From Picocystis sp. L7 (lineage: Eukaryota; Chlorophyta; Picocystophyceae; Picocystales; Picocystaceae): a DNA stretch of 64,000 nt. The notes beneath the pieces were generated by a model that made no database searches, was not told the origin of the DNA, and saw nothing but the letters and a program-made list of their open reading frames with translations. The DNA lies in assembly GCA_020975725.1 (NCBI GenBank), contig QXJR01000029.1, positions 372,001 through 436,000 of the forward strand, in the 5' to 3' direction. Position 1 is the stretch's first letter, and each line of letters starts with the position of its first letter. This document shows positions 30,264 through 38,900 of this stretch, in pieces. The position numbers were made by a program, and so were the translations under genes.

Positions 30264-33257
30264 ATGGCGCACGTCGAAGCGCGCTTCTGTGCGCTTGGCG
30301 ATGGCCCTTCGTGGACGACGGCGCATCGTGGAGGACGTGTGGGATCACTGGCAACCGCAAGACGCAGGTCGGAAGGGAAAGAAGGGAAAGGAAGGCGCCT
30401 TGCGACGCGTGCAAGTGCACGTGATCCTTCCGAAGCGAGGCAGGAGCGATGGGAAGCGCTGCTGATGCGCAGCCGAGAAAGAGCGAGGGAAAAAGAGGTC
30501 CTGAAGGCTGCCACGGATCCAAAGAAGCGTCAGGAAAGCACGGGATCGAACAGAAAGGAAGACGAGCGCACACGACGAGAGGAAGCCAAACAACTGCGAA
30601 GAGAAGTGCTGGAGAAGCTGCGCGATGCAGACGCGTACTCGTGCTTCGCAGCGCTCAGGAGCCTCTCGGGAAGCTCTGCACGCGAAGAACATTACATCAG
30701 CCATGGAAAGTGGGACGAAGACGGATTGAGACACGACCTGAGACTGGCCTTGCGAAGAGCCGACGCCGACAAGCTGCGTGCAATGACCCACGATCCCAAG
30801 AGCGCGCACGTGGAAGAGGAAGCGAAGCTGGACCCACGAACGCTGATGCAGCTGCGAAGCGCAAGCCGAGCCGCCCGTGGCGACGCCCAGTTCCGAAACG
30901 CTGCCCAGGAGTTCGACGCCGAGAGGCGGGCCCAAGCCAGGAGGGAGGAACTGGAGAAGGAAGAAGCAGAAGCGCTGAGAAGCAGAGGAAGCAGGCTAGC
31001 AGGAAGACCTGGATTCAGTAACACAGCAATGGCCGATGCCATGGAAGAAGCGCTGCGAAAGAGGAGGGCCAGGAACCTGGCCGCACTGGAGCTTGAGCGA
31101 GCGGAAGAGAAAGACGCGCAAGCCAGAGAACAGCAACAATGGCCCCTCAAAAAGCTACAGAACAATGGACTGGTGCTTGCAGGTATCAAAGCACGTGTGA
31201 AGGGACAGCTTTTCAGGGAAGCCGTCGTGGAGCTGAGCTTGCCCGGCGGGGCAGATCTCCCCTACCACAAGTTCCTCCAAGGAGACAACGTGGCCTTGCG
31301 TCCATTTGGAGGGAAGCTCAACAGGCCGAAGACTGGGCTGCATCGTGGCTGGACGCTTGATAAAGGGATGAGTGTAGATATAGAAAATCAGGGGAGCCTC
31401 TGGGAGGACGGAGCCAAGGACGAACTGGTCGTGGAAGGCATCGTCTTGGAAGTGAAGGCCAAGATCCTACAAGTGACCGTGCCGACCGGATTTGCCAGGG
31501 AACTCAGTCTCATACCAGCTGGGACACTGTGGAGGCTTGATAGAGGTTCAGATTCTGCGACGTACCGTCGAGCTGTGGATGCGGTGCAGCGCTTGGGAGC
31601 TCCGAGGACTGGATCAGATGGAGAAAAGAACATCCAGCTCATTCTTGCAGCAGATGAGGAGTTCCCTGATCTGTGTGGACCGGCCAGAGCAGCTGCCAAA
31701 ACACCTATCATTCCTTCCATTGCCCAAGCTGGCTGGAAGGAAAAGGCCGTGAAATGCCTTTCGGCACTCGAACTGAACCACTCACAGAAGTCTGCGGTTC
31801 AAGCTGCTCTAAATGCTAGTATGACGTTGTGGCAAGGTCCTCCAGGAACAGGAAAAACGAGGACATTGCTTGGTTTTATTGAGGTGGTGTGTGGCCTTCA
31901 GACAGCAGGCCCTGTTCTTGCAAGCAGCGGTACGAATGCAGCGGTGGACAATATCGTGGAGGGGTTGCTTGCAAGAGGCATAGACGTGCTTCGCATGGGC
32001 CAGCCAGCTAAAATCAGGGCGAGCGTCAGGCAGGCATCTCTCGAGGCCCGTATTGCACAAACCAATGCCGGAAGAGAGGCCATGAAGCTGCGAAACGAGG
32101 CGGAATTCAACATCTTCAAGGCCATGAGAACAAGCCAAGAAGAGAGTGTCAACCTTGAAGCCCAAGCACGGGATTTAAATGCTCGTGCTCAATCCCTGGA
32201 GCAAGCAGCAGCCAAGGAGGTCCTTGAAACAGTCCAAGTGGTTGCCGCAACATGTGCGGGTGCGGGTGAATCAAGGTTGATGCACCACAACTTCAAGATT
32301 GTAGTCCTGGACGAAGCAACCCAGGCCACCGAACCACAGACTCTGATACCTCTGACGAAAGGGGCGGAATGTGTCGTGATGGCAGGCGATCCAAGGCAGC
32401 TACCTCCCACTGTCACTTCTCAAGCTGCACTAGAAGCTGGTTTGGGGGAGACATTGTTTGAGAAGATCCAGCGCATTGGTTTAGAACCACATTTGCTGGA
32501 CACGCAATATCGTATGCACTCATCCATCCAGGCTTTTCCATCCATGCAGTTTTATGGAGGGCAGTTGAAGAGTGGCATCCTAGATGCAGATCGTCCTCCT
32601 CCTCGTGGTTTTCCATGGCCGAACAAGAGTATGCCAGTGTGCTTTGTGAATTGCTCCCTGGGAGAAGAGAAGCACGCAGAGGGTGGAACATCATACCAAA
32701 ATGTTCAAGAAGCAAAGCTGGTGGTGACGATACTCAACCAGATGATTCAGGAAGGGGTGTCTAGAGAACCCAGGGGGGCAGCCATTTTGACTCCTTACGC
32801 AGGACAGGTGCGGCTCTTGAAAGCCGTCGCTTCCAGCATGGAAGAGTTTTCTGCGGTCGAGATATCTTCCATCGATGGATATCAAGGGCGCGAAACAGAA
32901 GTTGTACTTTTCTCTGCAGTACGATCCAACAAACGAAATGCCGTAGGATTCCTTGCCGACGCTCGTAGACTGAATGTGGCTATTACTCGGGCGAAACGTG
33001 GGCTTGTTGTTGTTGGAAACAAGGCAACACTACGGAGCGACCAGACATGGTCTGCTTGGCTCGACTGGGTCGAATGCAATGGTCTTCAGCTGGAGGAGGG
33101 GAGGTTCAACGGCCGAACAATCAGTTACCATGGACCTTCGTATTCCTTGATTGAGCTGCAGGCAATGGCCCGGAGACACAAAATACGTGGGTTTTCCAAG
33201 CTAAGGAAGGGGGAGCTGCTGGAATTGTTGAAGACGGTAGAGGAGCAAACAGATTGA
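30264..33257 (+). CDS. UPF1/SMUBP2-like SF1 helicase with C-terminal SAP/Rho-N-like domain, probably plastid
   Basis: 997 residues from the ATG at 30264. The first ~60 residues are basic and Ala/Ser-rich, compatible with organelle import, followed by a ~250-residue charged helical region. The helicase core has LELNHSQKSAVQAAL, Walker A GPPGTGKTRT, ASSGTNAAVDN, Walker B VVLDEATQ, GDPRQLPPTV, DTQYRMHSSI, ISSIDGYQGRE and NVAITRAKRGL. The extreme C-terminus YSLIELQAMARRHKIRGFSKL...ELLELLK is a SAP/Rho-N-like nucleic-acid-binding module often seen in plastid proteins. Plants have a plastid-predicted SMUBP2-like helicase of comparable build. Substrate (RNA or DNA) is unknown. Confidence 0.9.
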   Translation: MAHVEARFCALGDGPSWTTAHRGGRVGSLATARRRSEGKEGKGRRLATRASARDPSEARQERWEALLMRSRERAREKEVLKAATDPKKRQESTGSNRKEDERTRREEAKQLRREVLEKLRDADAYSCFAALRSLSGSSAREEHYISHGKWDEDGLRHDLRLALRRADADKLRAMTHDPKSAHVEEEAKLDPRTLMQLRSASRAARGDAQFRNAAQEFDAERRAQARREELEKEEAEALRSRGSRLAGRPGFSNTAMADAMEEALRKRRARNLAALELERAEEKDAQAREQQQWPLKKLQNNGLVLAGIKARVKGQLFREAVVELSLPGGADLPYHKFLQGDNVALRPFGGKLNRPKTGLHRGWTLDKGMSVDIENQGSLWEDGAKDELVVEGIVLEVKAKILQVTVPTGFARELSLIPAGTLWRLDRGSDSATYRRAVDAVQRLGAPRTGSDGEKNIQLILAADEEFPDLCGPARAAAKTPIIPSIAQAGWKEKAVKCLSALELNHSQKSAVQAALNASMTLWQGPPGTGKTRTLLGFIEVVCGLQTAGPVLASSGTNAAVDNIVEGLLARGIDVLRMGQPAKIRASVRQASLEARIAQTNAGREAMKLRNEAEFNIFKAMRTSQEESVNLEAQARDLNARAQSLEQAAAKEVLETVQVVAATCAGAGESRLMHHNFKIVVLDEATQATEPQTLIPLTKGAECVVMAGDPRQLPPTVTSQAALEAGLGETLFEKIQRIGLEPHLLDTQYRMHSSIQAFPSMQFYGGQLKSGILDADRPPPRGFPWPNKSMPVCFVNCSLGEEKHAEGGTSYQNVQEAKLVVTILNQMIQEGVSREPRGAAILTPYAGQVRLLKAVASSMEEFSAVEISSIDGYQGRETEVVLFSAVRSNKRNAVGFLADARRLNVAITRAKRGLVVVGNKATLRSDQTWSAWLDWVECNGLQLEEGRFNGRTISYHGPSYSLIELQAMARRHKIRGFSKLRKGELLELLKTVEEQTD

Positions 33258-33341
33258 CTCCCTGCCCAGATGATCAATTGATAGCGACGTATGGGCATGA
33301 CTACGCGTTTACAAATAAACTTATTTACCGGAGACCGAATA

Positions 33342-33352
33342 CGGGGACACTT
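33342..33352 (+). repeat. Left terminal inverted repeat core
   Basis: CGGGGACACTT directly after TA at 33340-33341. It pairs with the right end at 35814-35824, with three mismatches in eleven positions. Confidence 0.65.
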
Positions 33353-33535
33353 TGATACATCGACCGTAGACTCGATAGATACGTATCCGATCGATCGAAG
33401 GATGAGTGCCAGAGGCATGTACTCCTTGGTTCCATGCATTCAAAACGTAGCGCTCCTCTCGTGCGGAAGTTCTTTTGCCACGCAACGTTGGATTCGCAAT
33501 CCACGAAGACAACCGTTCGCAAGGGCCTCCTTGTC

Positions 33536-34201
33536 CAAATGCGATGTGATGATCGAGACGGTTCGCGCTCTCGCGTCGAGCGATCCGTTCGTGTCTGTAC
33601 GAAAGATACGAACTTGGATCCACTAGACGCTCGGAACTCTCGAATCCCATGAACTCGTTCGAAAAGCCTTCAAGAAGAAAGGTTGGACGAAGAAGAAAGC
33701 CAAACCTGATTTCTGAGCCGTCGAACCGTGTCGACACGCGGGCCAGGCGCTCTTGCAAACACGAGATGCGTAGTTCTCAGAAGAGCAACCTTTCGTGTCC
33801 ATGGACAAGAGCTCTTTTGGAAGAAACGGGATAAGCACGAGGGGTCATGCTCCCTTGGGAAAGACTCGATCAAGACGGAGAAAACGTCCAGTCGCGACCA
33901 CGAGGTCGCACCACACGACCACATCCTCCGACACGAAACTAAAGAAGGTTCGTACGAGACGGAGTCTTTTGGTTTGTTTCTGAATCGTCGGGAATTGGAC
34001 AAGGGTACGGTTGGACTCCTCGACAGCGCGAAGTTTCGTCGTTCGAAAGTCGCGCACCAAATCGCTATGGAGAAAGGGTGGACGGTTTTGTTGATGCCGC
34101 CGTATTTCCCATGGTTCAGCCTCATCGAAGGTGTGTTTTCGATCGTGAAGAGGCATTACAATGACTTCCAAGACGTGGAAGAAATCTTTCGATCCGTATG
34201 A
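33536..34201 (+). pseudogene. Tc1/mariner-type DD34E transposase remnant
   Basis: It would cut and join the terminal repeats. Similarity begins around 33,540 (SSDPFVSVRKIRTWIH, part of the helix-turn-helix region) and runs to the stop after 34,200. The catalytic segments are VSMDKSSFGRN (first Asp, 33804-33806), VGLLDSAKFRRS (second Asp, 34022-34024) and LMPPYFPWFSLIEGVFSIVKR (Glu, 34127-34129). The second Asp and the Glu are 34 residues apart, giving a DD34E signature. The usual PDLNPIE becomes PWFSLIE. The N-terminal part, first Asp and C-terminal part lie in different frames and there is an in-frame stop, so it is inactive. Confidence 0.85.
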
Positions 34202-34302
34202 AAGAAGCACCTACATGCCTTCTTGTAGCAAAGTTTGTCCATGGGATGCATGGCAGAGACGTAAGAATTTGCTCATGAGAAGTTGAGGGGACTTCCTTTC
34301 AC

Positions 34303-35663
34303 ATGGAGCCTGACGACCTCTCGGAGTCATCGGTCCACAAAAAGCGAAAACACGTGAATCGCATTCAAAGGATCAAAGGTCAGAAGACCGTGCAAGAAAC
34401 CGTTCTCAAGTGCGCATCGGGTGGGTTGCTTCGCAGGGATGGCCTGTGTAACAACAACTTCATGCGGGTCGTTCAAAGCCGGGTTAGCGCATACTCGAAC
34501 CGCATGCATTTGACTAGAGCGTGTTTGAACCTGTTGCTTCGGAAAATCTTTCACGGCATAGTCACACATGATTTGGGCGACCGAAAGGTGCCCAATGTGT
34601 TCGATCAAACATTTCTTCACCAATTGATGTTGAGTGTGAGTAGGAGGCACAAACCGCCCACGAAATTTGTCGCGCTCCACCAAAGCCACCCCAATCCGTG
34701 CGCCACGGTCGACGCATGCAAACAGTACGCGGGCGATAGTAGCCTTTACTCGTTTGGTGCCGTCAAGTACTTGACCAATCTCAAAACCCACCACATGGCG
34801 GAATTGAAGCGTAGGATCAAACAGTGGATATATTCATCTGCGTTCAAGAAGCGATTGGCAAGGACGTCCCCTTCCTCAGAACACCAAAACGCGACCAAGG
34901 TATTGCCATTGTTGTACCATTTGCACAGCTGGCTCCTTCCGGACGATTCTTGCATCGTTGTCAATGCCATGCCTTTAGATCTGGCATCGGAGAATCGAAC
35001 TTAGAAATGGATCCTCGGGGAAGCTGCCTCGTTGAAGAAGATATAGTTTGTGGAGCCATCATCCTTGCAAGGGATGGTCAAGGGCGCGTGCTTTATCAAC
35101 CATCACCTCGAAACTGAGTTGCTTGCTCCCTTACTCGACCTCGCACCCCTCTTTTGAATCCAAAACCAATTTGCGAAGTTGACACTAACGTCTTGTGCGA
35201 GGTGCTTCGTGAGCTAGGATGGACGAGCGCCGACCACGCCTTGCTTGTCAAATTCTTCATCGCATGCGAACAACTATTGGAAAGGCTAAGACGTTGAAAG
35301 TTTCCTATGGCTCGGCAAAGTTTGCACCTAGTGGAAGAGGCAAGGTTTGCGTGCCGACAAGACGTGCCTTTAAGGAATGTGCATGTAGTTTCCAAAGTGC
35401 ACCACGGACGAGTTTTGGACGGCGGTCGTCCATCACGGAATGCTCGCATTTATAGAAGTGGTCAGAAGATACGACACGATACGTTGGGTCCAAGCTTGCA
35501 ATGGTGTTGTCATACCAACCAAACGAAATGCAACTTTGTCAATCGGGATCACAGCACCGCGATCGACATATGGAATTGCATGCGCCAAAAGCAATCCGTT
35601 ATTCTGTGTGGGTCAAAGGGAGATACGGTACAAATATGGATCGGACGTTGGATACCCAACTGA
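34303..35663 (+). pseudogene. Fanzor (eukaryotic TnpB-like RNA-guided nuclease) remnant
   Basis: An intact 233-codon block (34303-35004) encodes the N-terminal helical part (RVSAYSNRMHLTRACLNLLL, FDQTFLHQLMLSVSRRH). Further pieces continue in the other two frames: LEMDPRGS (34.99-35.02 kb, RuvC-I-like Asp), SYGSAKFAPSGRGKVCVPTRRAFKECA (split here: YGSAKF at 35306-35323, then PTRRAFKECA), TDEFWTAVVHHG at 35404 onward (RuvC-II-like Glu), and a Cys pair followed by VNRDHSTAIDIW at 35538 onward (RuvC-III Asp). This order of RuvC-I, RuvC-II, zinc ribbon and RuvC-III is that of Fanzor/TnpB proteins. At least two frame changes and early stops make it inactive. I recognise it by motif order, not by database search. 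Confidence 0.8.
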
Positions 35664-35813
35664 AACGAATGCCATGGGATAAGGAACGGAAGCGAGGAGG
35701 GGCTTTCCCGACGTGAGGTCCACAATGAAGGAACGTCGAACCAAAGGCCTGCAGGTTTTGGGAAACGCGTGCACAATTCCTCTTCATTCCATATTCGAAT
35801 GATCAAGGGGCGG
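35664..35813 (+). other. Element 3' non-coding segment; possible guide-RNA (omega RNA) region
   Basis: About 150 bp between the last Fanzor-like codons and the right terminal repeat. In Fanzor and TnpB elements the guide RNA is made from the 3' end of the nuclease gene up to the element end, with the guide taken from flanking DNA. That role here is inferred from position only; I did not establish a fold. Confidence 0.35.
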
Positions 35814-35824
35814 AGGTGTCCCAT
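35814..35824 (-). repeat. Right terminal inverted repeat core
   Basis: Read on the minus strand it is ATGGGACACCT, matching the left end; it is followed outward by TA at 35825-35826. Confidence 0.65.
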
Positions 35825-35967
35825 TATTCCCTTGGTCGAGTGTATTTACTCAAATCTTGCTTCCTCCAGAAGCACATGGCATTTTCATCCCTCCCCTGAG
35901 CCTTCTTCGTGCGAGCAGCCTTGCAAACTACAGAACGATCCTGCTGGGTATCCAAACCAGTTTCGTT

Positions 35968-38900
35968 CTACAAAAGGAATGCTCCCTTCACCAGTCCTTC
36001 ACCTAGTGCAAGCATTTCTGAGACTAGTTCGGAAACATCAGTCGCAGCCTTGACCTCCTCGGGGGATGTCCTGGTAAGCTTACTTGTGTCGTTCTCCTTG
36101 CCTGGAAGAAACGCTTTCGCCTTCCATTTTATGCCAATGGTGCAACCCCCGTATTCATCCACGAATATGTAGCAAAAGGTAGAGAACCGATCCCTTAGGA
36201 GAGAAACATACCTTTTCACAGGATCAAAGCCAATGAGCAGTGCATTAAGAGCGCCATCCCTTCCGGCATGTAACAACCTTTCGGCTTTCATGTGCATTGC
36301 TGCCCTTGCCTGCTTCCGTGGTTTGGCAAAGTCAGCCTCCAACAAGCTAGCACGCTCCTGTTGTGGCAAAAGTGCATATGCCGGGCAGAGACTTTGCTGG
36401 GGCGCTTTCAGTGCTTCTTGCCGCAGCACCAGGACAACATCGTTGCCAGCCTGGGAAGAAACAAACAAGGACTTCCATTTAGATGGGTTGACCTCCACGG
36501 CATTGTACATGTCCACAATTTTCAAAAACGTTGTCCTAGCAAGCTCCCTGGCCTTATTGAGCACCTCTTTACAAGGGTGAGATGCTGTCCATCTTTTCCC
36601 TTGAACATCGTCCGGGAGGATTATACACATAGGAGGGCCAGTGCCCTGCTTCCGGGCACGATCGAATTGCATCATGGACAAATCAATGGAGGATTTAGTC
36701 ATTTCTGCATTCAAATCAACCAGAAGCGGTTGGCTGTTCCATGGGTGCGTGCTAAGAAGCTCCAGGAATCTACAGAAGCCAGCAACGCGTGTTGCTGGCG
36801 CCTGACACACATACGGCCTGGTGAAACAACTAGCAACAAGGAGCTCCACTGCTTCATCTTTGATATGTCCAGAGAGCATATGACCCGCGATCCAGCGCTT
36901 GGCCAGACGTACGGCAGGCGCAAACTCAGGCTGTTCGTCCACAAGTACTGCCAAGACACTGTAGTGTTTATTTCTTATTTGGAAGTTTGATGCTTCTGTC
37001 CCTGCTGAAGGCTCCTGCCCCCCTTGTGGGTCAAGTGTTAAACGGAAAGCAAAACCTTCAAACAGTACATCCACAAAGCTCTCTGACGAAATGCTATCTA
37101 TCCCCATGTCAGTGGACAGGCGCTCAGCAATTTGCAACAGGAAGGCGGATCGGGCCTTTGCCGCAGCTTCTGGATGAGCTGGCCATCGCCCAGACCCTTC
37201 CAGCACTACGTGCACCTCTGTTGGATCAATGCACAGAGGAATCATTTCCTCTTGATTTCTACGCTTTCTGCTTCTACTCGACAAGCTACCATTGGAGTTG
37301 TGTGCTTCCGACTCGTCCCAATTTCTCATTCCTAACAATTCATGCCTGTTGGTGGGAAAGGCTTGCAAGATATGCATTGAGGGGGGCAACATCAGGACGC
37401 CAGATACTCGCAAAGGCAACCCCTCTATCCGGCGCAGCACATGGGACAAGCGATCGCCTACCAGCGCAACTTCTCGCGGATCCACCTGCCCCTTGTTTAC
37501 ACAGGGATTTCCTCCTTCTACGCTTGCCATTCGGACAGGCTTTGAAACAGACTCCTCCAAGACCCCGTCCAACGCATTCCCCACAGCGGCACACTGGATC
37601 CCAGGAAAGGCCCGGCGCAAAGCTGCCTTTGCCATGCGAGAAGGGCATCTGTGACGTTCCCAGTCTTTCTGTGCCCAAACAACTGCTTCACACACTGTTC
37701 CATTTGCAAATCGGCGCAACGAGGCTCTGGGTCCGTGTCGCTCTCTGAAAGCCTTTGCCAGCTCGGTCTGACTTGCCTTGGGTCCCATCTCCACTCTTGC
37801 AAAGGCTAGTTTAGGATCCAGCACCACACCCACAGTGATGGTTCCTCTGCGGTGATGAGCGTGATCTCTTCCTATTGCCCGCACAATTTTGGCACGTTGA
37901 CCGAGCGCCACCCGGACTACATGCTCCACTGCATCTTCCATGGCCCTGGATATTCCTTGATCATACAGCAGGTTCTCGTCTATCTCCTCTTCGTCGGGAA
38001 TCTGGTTCTCGTCCTCTTCCTTTCTGACCGGATCGTCTACATCATCCACAGCATCCTGCCTATTTTCATCGTAGACCTGCTCTTCCAAGGTTGCACTGTT
38101 CTTTGGACTCATCCTTAAATGGTGATCCTCCGAAGGTATACCGATTCGAAGTAACAGATCGAACCTTGTGACCGGATGCACTTTCCCGCTCGCAAACGCT
38201 GCATCCACGACGTCGACAGACTGTTGGGCCACCAGATGGCTGTCTAACAGGGCAAGCCCACACTCGGATAGATATCCCGCATAGGAAACTGCACTAGGAG
38301 AAGCGCATTCGCAAGGCTGGAGTAGGGACGTCCTATCCTCTGCATTGGTTGTGCGTCCGCGTTTGGACAGGGGGTCCTCTTCCCTTCCACTGGTTTGTGC
38401 ATTGGCACCTTCTGGGCGATCCCAAGGGGCAATTACAGGAGGAGCGGTACCTTCCCATGCTCCTTTTCCTCTTTCTGCGAATCCCTTCATCGCTGCACGC
38501 GCCACTTGCAAAGCATTTGGCCTCGCATCGACACATTCGGCTGCAATTCTCAGCGCTTCTCTTCGGAATGCATCCCAGGGCAGGGCATCTCGGCCTTCAC
38601 ATGCGCCTGCTCGAACCGCCCAGCGCGACAGGAGCGCTCCTGCATGCCTTCCTAGTTCTCCTGCAACTCCTATCGCTTCTTTTTCGGCTTCGAAGCATCG
38701 CAATGCGTTCGCGTCGCACGCCATGGCGGCTCTGCACCTCGGCCACGCCTCGTCGGGACGGGCATTCCATCGCCTCCGCCATCCTTCTTGCGCTCTCATT
38801 CTCGCCTTGTTCGCGTCCACGGATCCTTCCTGCGGTCTGAAGACCACGTCTACGTTGGAATGTCGCATGGTGAGGCGCAATGCACGTCCTCTCGTGCCAC

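Follow-up and report, generated by a model that had tools for sequence, protein, structure and literature searches.

Probable remains of a Tc1/mariner-superfamily transposon with a Fanzor1-lineage gene lacking the zinc finger in Picocystis sp. L7

Is a 2.5-kb interval in the genome of Picocystis sp. L7 the remnant of a single transposon that once carried two genes, and was the second of these a Fanzor gene? The interval lies at 33,328-35,842 of a 64,000-nucleotide stretch (contig QXJR01000029.1, positions 372,001 to 436,000), which we call the window. The original prediction saw here a decayed member of a Mariner-Fanzor family, and this view is supported by a DDE_3 match of the transposase remnant, by Fanzor1-like relatives of the second gene and by ends shared across copies. 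We consider it very probable that the element is a dead transposon of the Tc1/mariner superfamily (DD34E, TA target, imperfect inverted repeats of ~28 bp) which carried a nuclease gene of the Fanzor1 lineage, belonging to a subclade without zinc finger. Mariner-Fanzor elements as such have been known since 2013 (PMC3627910), and what is added here is the zinc-finger-less lineage and a series of reduced copies. The element and its recognizable parts are the following:

33,328-35,842, plus strand: whole decayed Tc1/mariner-Fanzor element, bounded by TA at 33,326-33,327 and 35,843-35,844 (family alignment of ends)
33,328-33,355, no strand: left terminal inverted repeat, outer part poorly conserved (alignment of 9 left ends)
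33,795-33,818, plus strand: VSMDKSSF, probable motif of the first catalytic Asp of the transposase, in another frame
33,923-34,183, plus strand: transposase remnant with DDE_3 match (PF13358, E 6.6e-9), D and E 34 residues apart
34,303-35,001, plus strand: N-terminal part of the Fanzor gene, open from the ATG at 34,303
35,181-35,231, plus strand: surroundings of the deletion that removed RuvC-I (~520 bp against copy L024)
35,231-35,421, plus strand: RuvC-II region (YGSAKF) and, in a shifted frame, the glutamate motif TDEFWT
35,496-35,660, plus strand: RuvC-III region (LQWCCH...FVNRDHS), reaching the stop at 35,661-35,663
35,664-35,842, plus strand: conserved non-coding right-end segment, candidate place of an omega RNA (alignment A3)
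35,815-35,842, no strand: right terminal inverted repeat, strongly conserved (alignment of 14 right ends)

The first gene is a transposase remnant with DD34E spacing, as had been proposed. Its piece 33,710-34,198 matches the DDE_3 profile with 36.2 bits (cut-off 28.6), and exactly 34 residues separate the Asp (codon at 34,022) from the Glu (codon at 34,127). A DD34E transposase stands nearer to Tc1 than to mariner proper, and 'Mariner' is correct as the name of the superfamily. VSMDKSSF, which we take to be the first Asp motif, lies in a frame (33,774-33,980) that matches the copies L021 and L022; since this frame differs from that of the remainder, the gene is frameshifted. The piece 33,356-33,649, a broken region of uncertain frame, gave no Pfam match for an N-terminal helix-turn-helix. 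A search of PDB sequences with the transposase piece returned a single weak match to an aspartic protease, which we attribute to chance. With its DDE_3 transposase, DD34E spacing, TA borders and terminal inverted repeats, the element belongs to the Tc1/mariner superfamily.

The borders were placed by family alignment. In the 14 aligned right ends conservation stops at a TA about 18 bp outside the end first proposed; this TA stands at the edge of conservation in 13 of them, followed by a CACTCGG-like sequence. Among the nine aligned left ends the inner repeat is clear and the outer part variable, so that 33,326-33,327 is a best placement, made by analogy, with 33,322-33,323 as the alternative TA. 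We therefore rejected the ends given originally (33,342 and 35,824), because conservation runs past them to the outer TA. The TA dinucleotides named with those ends fall within the repeat, and the idea of TA flanks holds at the outer borders. Likewise, the claimed similarity of the inverted ends is weak in the window copy taken alone, where 49 of 2000 shuffles score as high, and was established by the family alignment.

The second gene is broken as well. Homology of its N-terminal part extends in frame past stops to about 35,181, and this part is matched in tblastn by the relatives P0004 (4.5e-56), P0006 and P0020. Farther downstream the originally noted motifs YGSAKF (35,306-35,323), TDEFWT (35,404-35,421) and FVNRDHS (35,535-35,555) are present and align with intact relatives. 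Of the proposed cysteine motif, the pair itself exists as LQWCCH (35,496-35,513), without a CxxC zinc finger. We rejected MDPRG (35,007-35,021) as RuvC-I, since it is read in frame 0 against frame 1 of the Fanzor gene and lies too far upstream, in the N-terminal half. In full-length relatives the DPG is found at about residue 345-400 (one at 445), a stretch that is missing from the window: L024 has about 520 bp between element positions 1899 and 1904, which are adjacent here. Matches of the gene to intact Fanzor-like proteins reach E values down to 4e-56 and 5e-32, and these proteins in turn match solved Fanzor1 proteins by profile (1.9e-16) and by predicted fold. A search of PDB sequences with the window's N-terminal part gave no result, and one with protein P0001 gave one weak Fanzor match at 0.028.

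Whether this gene should be called a Fanzor depends on the definition used. The motif of 2013 requires a C4 zinc finger between [TS][TS] and RD (PMC3627910). The fingerprint of 2023 consists of DPG plus a shifted Glu, and 'many' Fanzors are said in the same source to contain a zinc finger (PMC10711439). We aligned 31 of 39 relatives (alignment A2; P0003 and seven short proteins were dropped), of which 28 have 589-689 residues and are apparently intact. Although only 37-49% identical to the reference row, 30 of the 31 carry DPGR (P0004 reads VPVG) and 30 the shifted catalytic Glu (E-F/Y-R-[ST]-[ST]; P0004 ends before this motif), while the RD motif with the final Asp occurs in all 30 with a readable segment. 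IDPGR is likewise present in the genome copies L027 and L029. Their predicted fold matches that of the Fanzor1 nucleases SpuFz, PpFz and GtFz (PDB 8gkh, 9cf0, 9cer) over about 480-530 residues. However, these three all show zinc-finger cysteines, whereas a CxxC at this place was found in 0 of 30 relatives. In GtFz the third catalytic residue is Asn (PMC11423790). Thus, by the 2013 motif the gene is no Fanzor, and by the 2023 fingerprint and the fold it is one. Because fingerprint and fold are present and the C4 motif is absent, we class it as a variant lineage within Fanzor1.

P0002 and its relatives, which make up the other Fanzor1 lineage in the genome, differ in this respect. At least two CxxC occur in 96 of 104 of these proteins, those longer than 600 residues with both motifs among 120 of 1186 matches listed. 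In a quick, unrooted tree of 49 rows (28 of the 30 zinc-finger-less proteins, each longer than 560 residues, and 21 from the other lineage) the two groups are split on one very long branch with a support of 100. A search of viral contigs with the profile of A2 found one distant locus, L049, with 22% identity. We found no report of a zinc-finger-less Fanzor clade in the literature searched, which left out most subscription papers and hence is no proof of absence.

Past the Fanzor stop, the right end has a mean column identity of 82% (A3, 14 copies). RNAalifold draws hairpins in it, with a covariation term of +0.76 for the whole fold, and in the two hairpins tested 90.3% and 92.9% of cells are paired, many more than in slid versions. 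A ~0.7-kb element of a related lineage in the same genome is present in 15 copies, counting the query, that cover 686 or more of its 704 bases. These copies keep a left end, the last ~130 codons of a zinc-finger-less Fanzor (seven copies read) and a right end, whose consensus TACACTCGG, exact in two of six aligned ends, resembles that of the window family. Since no DNA match between them and the window family was found at E 1e-3, both are tied together only by the protein clade and the similar right ends. Five further loci match the ~0.7-kb query only from base 129 on and look like parents of the short copies, because all five carry long Fanzor matches, which contain stops. The short copies show no third-position signal (identity 0.744, 0.776 and 0.745 in six copies) and so spread as DNA, not as genes. 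The short copies and probable parents lie on C1, C2, C6, C8, C9, C12, C14, C19, C20 and C25 and include L051-L057.

The retained 3' end would fit a candidate guide RNA overlapping the end of the gene. One might envision that a large Fanzor1 lineage lost the zinc finger found in all solved Fanzor1 proteins, kept the whole catalytic triad and travels in Tc1/mariner elements; these would have lost the transposase at first and most of the Fanzor gene later, with the 3' end of that gene and the right terminus retained. We rate this scenario a little short of an even chance. If it is true and the proteins are active RNA-guided nucleases, the zinc finger would be dispensable for guided cutting, and the part retained in the reduced copies would mark the guide-RNA region.

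The copies in the host genome bear on the question whether both genes belong to one element. A search with the DNA of the window element gave 33 matches, which we grouped by eye into 17 loci; such counts are lower bounds. Parts were called at E <= 1e-3 on the element's strand. The N-terminal part of the Fanzor gene was detected in 16 loci, RuvC-II/III in 14 and RuvC-I in 11. Six loci have a match to the DE part of the transposase (the window as query source, L021, L022, L023, L026 and L030a). The order of transposase and Fanzor is constant across these six, and left and right ends are common to two-gene and one-gene copies, as a family with shared terminal repeats around both genes should have them. 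L021 and L022 share 96.7% identity over 2,166 bp spanning both genes, while comparison of their flanks gave no match of at least 60 bp outside the element; therefore both genes most likely moved as one unit. The two copies lie on C2, 44 kb apart and in opposite orientation. L028 and L031 align over their whole length (2,281 columns) with 81% identity and have no transposase match; they form a Fanzor-only subfamily. A search with the right end of L028 led to eight places, every one a known locus of the family.

Decay is evident throughout: in the RuvC part none of the nine copies checked is free of stops when read in the frame of L029, and all eight others carry insertions or deletions against L029. 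In the Fanzor gene of four disjoint pairs, third codon positions differ at 0.283 against 0.219 and 0.214 (p 3.6e-5); judged by this codon pattern, the gene was under selection before it decayed.

A number of observations weigh against our reading. The window copy has no RuvC-I match, that stretch being deleted, and seven pieces of the second gene searched gave no match to any Pfam family. A genome search with the zinc-ribbon family of TnpB and Fanzor (PF07282) hit seven places, none in the window family. Such a missing profile match is, taken alone, the outcome on which the original prediction was to be given up; we consider it outweighed by the matches to intact Fanzor-like proteins. No CxxC lies between the shifted Glu and the final Asp, so the C4 zinc finger of the 2013 definition is absent. 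The right end shows no convincing covariation, as 36 and 47 of 500 shuffles reach the observed scores. The left border is not as sharply defined as the right one. The codon test is one pooled table, and its youngest pair (L027, L029) lacks the third-position excess. Transposase and Fanzor were detected together in only 6 of 17 loci. The left-most ~109 bp of L021 and L022 are only 86% identical, a pattern with which gene conversion or a mosaic history would agree no less well than plain transposition. Finally, the intact relatives hoped for, with both genes open, were not found in the genome search (72 of 92 candidates scored), and thus nothing shows that the element's proteins ever worked.

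Which other explanations should then be weighed? The strongest accepts the same element and supposes that the zinc-finger-less Fanzor was no longer an RNA-guided cutter and had another role, for example in regulating transposition; a methyltransferase role has been proposed by Bao and Jurka. The lack of CxxC in all 30 relatives and the shuffle results for the right end, where an omega RNA is at most a candidate, speak for it. However, DPG, shifted Glu and final Asp are retained in 30 relatives as diverged as those aligned here, and their predicted fold is that of Fanzor1 nucleases. We regard such a role as unlikely, albeit deserving attention.

In our own reading the Fanzor was a guided nuclease, as we infer. 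The transposase would have recognized the end repeats and moved the element out of and into TA sites, in cis, or in trans for copies without a transposase gene. The Fanzor would most likely have taken its guide from an RNA made at the right end and cut DNA matching it, plausibly at the donor site after excision or in the allele without the element, and repair from a copy-bearing sister would then restore the element or add a copy, to the benefit of transposition. Such a cut-and-repair model has been put forward for TnpB, and it was mentioned as possible for Fanzor too (PMC10432273).

Alternatively, the two genes might be fossils of unrelated origin, an independent Fanzor element having landed beside a mariner remnant. 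The transposase DE part is indeed missing from view in 11 of 17 loci, and the subfamily of L028 and L031 has the Fanzor without a transposase match. Yet two-gene and one-gene copies have common ends on both sides, gene order is identical in the six two-gene loci, and the occurrence of both genes in different flanks at L021 and L022 largely refutes this explanation, which we deem very improbable. Least probable of all, and barely worth entertaining, is that bacteria were the source of the second gene, which would then encode a TnpB or Cas12-like protein and no Fanzor.

Compared by description, the composite element resembles known Tc/mariner Fanzor1 elements: PGv-1, PUl-1, PUl-4 and HMa-1 have inverted repeats and TA borders, PGv-1 and PUl-1 combine a Mariner-like transposase with Fanzor1, and PUl-4 carries Fanzor only between the same kind of ends, as do our one-gene copies (PMC3627910). 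In contrast to these, the present family comprises 17 loci with no intact member found, and its Fanzor lacks the zinc finger. CMe-1A of Cyanidioschyzon merolae is similar in holding Fanzor1 in a ~3-kb element with many diverged copies. However, its description gives it neither inverted repeats nor a class, and the shorter element TE-N2_CMe shares its 5' end, unlike the 3' part retained here (PMC3627910). The reduced copies may also be likened to the Fanzor 'ghost loci' of Spizellomyces, in which, as described, the guide-RNA part is retained and the protein gene lost (PMC10432273); ours differ in that they make up a family of one fixed length (~0.7 kb) and still contain the last ~130 codons.

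The locus gives one more example of a multi-copy Tc1/mariner family with a Fanzor gene. Its fossils in one compact genome include copies with both genes and copies with the Fanzor alone, and a related lineage there adds strongly reduced ones. Zinc-finger-less Fanzors would be missed wherever a search demands the C4 motif, as does the regular expression quoted in PMC10711439, and these proteins offer a ready test of the role of the zinc finger.

In the window, the element sits between a helicase gene upstream, with AAA_11/AAA_12 (last codon ending at 33,254; its SMUBP-2 domain scores under the cut-off), and a convergent Nrap gene downstream (open reading frame end at 35,968). A search with Nrap gave four hits, three with identities of 98, 72 and 70% and one, at 24%, to a protein of the haptophyte Chrysotila carterae. 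The content of guanine plus cytosine in the window is 49-60% per 2-kb block.

Two proteins deserve a remark on provenance. P0003 comes from EukProt, where it bears the label Pavlova lutheri, and its sequence is the same as part of copy L029; residues 115-402 of P0001 are 100% identical to a EukProt protein with this label. The published genome of Diacronema (Pavlova) lutheri, however, does not agree in size or in its GC of 73% (PMC8379373), and in the case of P0003 the label or sample may be wrong or mixed.

Further Fanzor loci were seen in the same genome. The lineage with the C4 zinc finger gave 73 matches, among them L044 (C8:292427-294448) and L045 (C2:49328-51346). L044 is one open frame of 674 residues, the only fully open Fanzor gene found and not of the window lineage. 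L045 shares 86% protein identity with it, has five stops and is directly preceded by a DDE_3 transposase remnant. The C8 Fanzor (P0002) also has a decayed relative on the minus strand at L026:1033-1978, just upstream of a copy of the window family. L043, L046, L047 and L048 are decayed TnpB-like genes of a third kind with motifs like HTSKTCGCCG, perhaps Fanzor2; parts of L043 share 72-83% identity with L046 and L047, and L047 and L048 gave no DNA match.

Transposase genes of the DDE_3 type also occur in head-to-tail arrays of units with open frames of 381 or 443 residues (C12:24884-73270, C16:557270-577201, C5, C13 and L050). There are 18 matches at a spacing of ~2,821 bp on C12 and nine at 2,466 bp on C16, and two unit parts in L050 are 100% identical over 1,817 bp. 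Such tandem arrays of near-identical transposase genes are odd.
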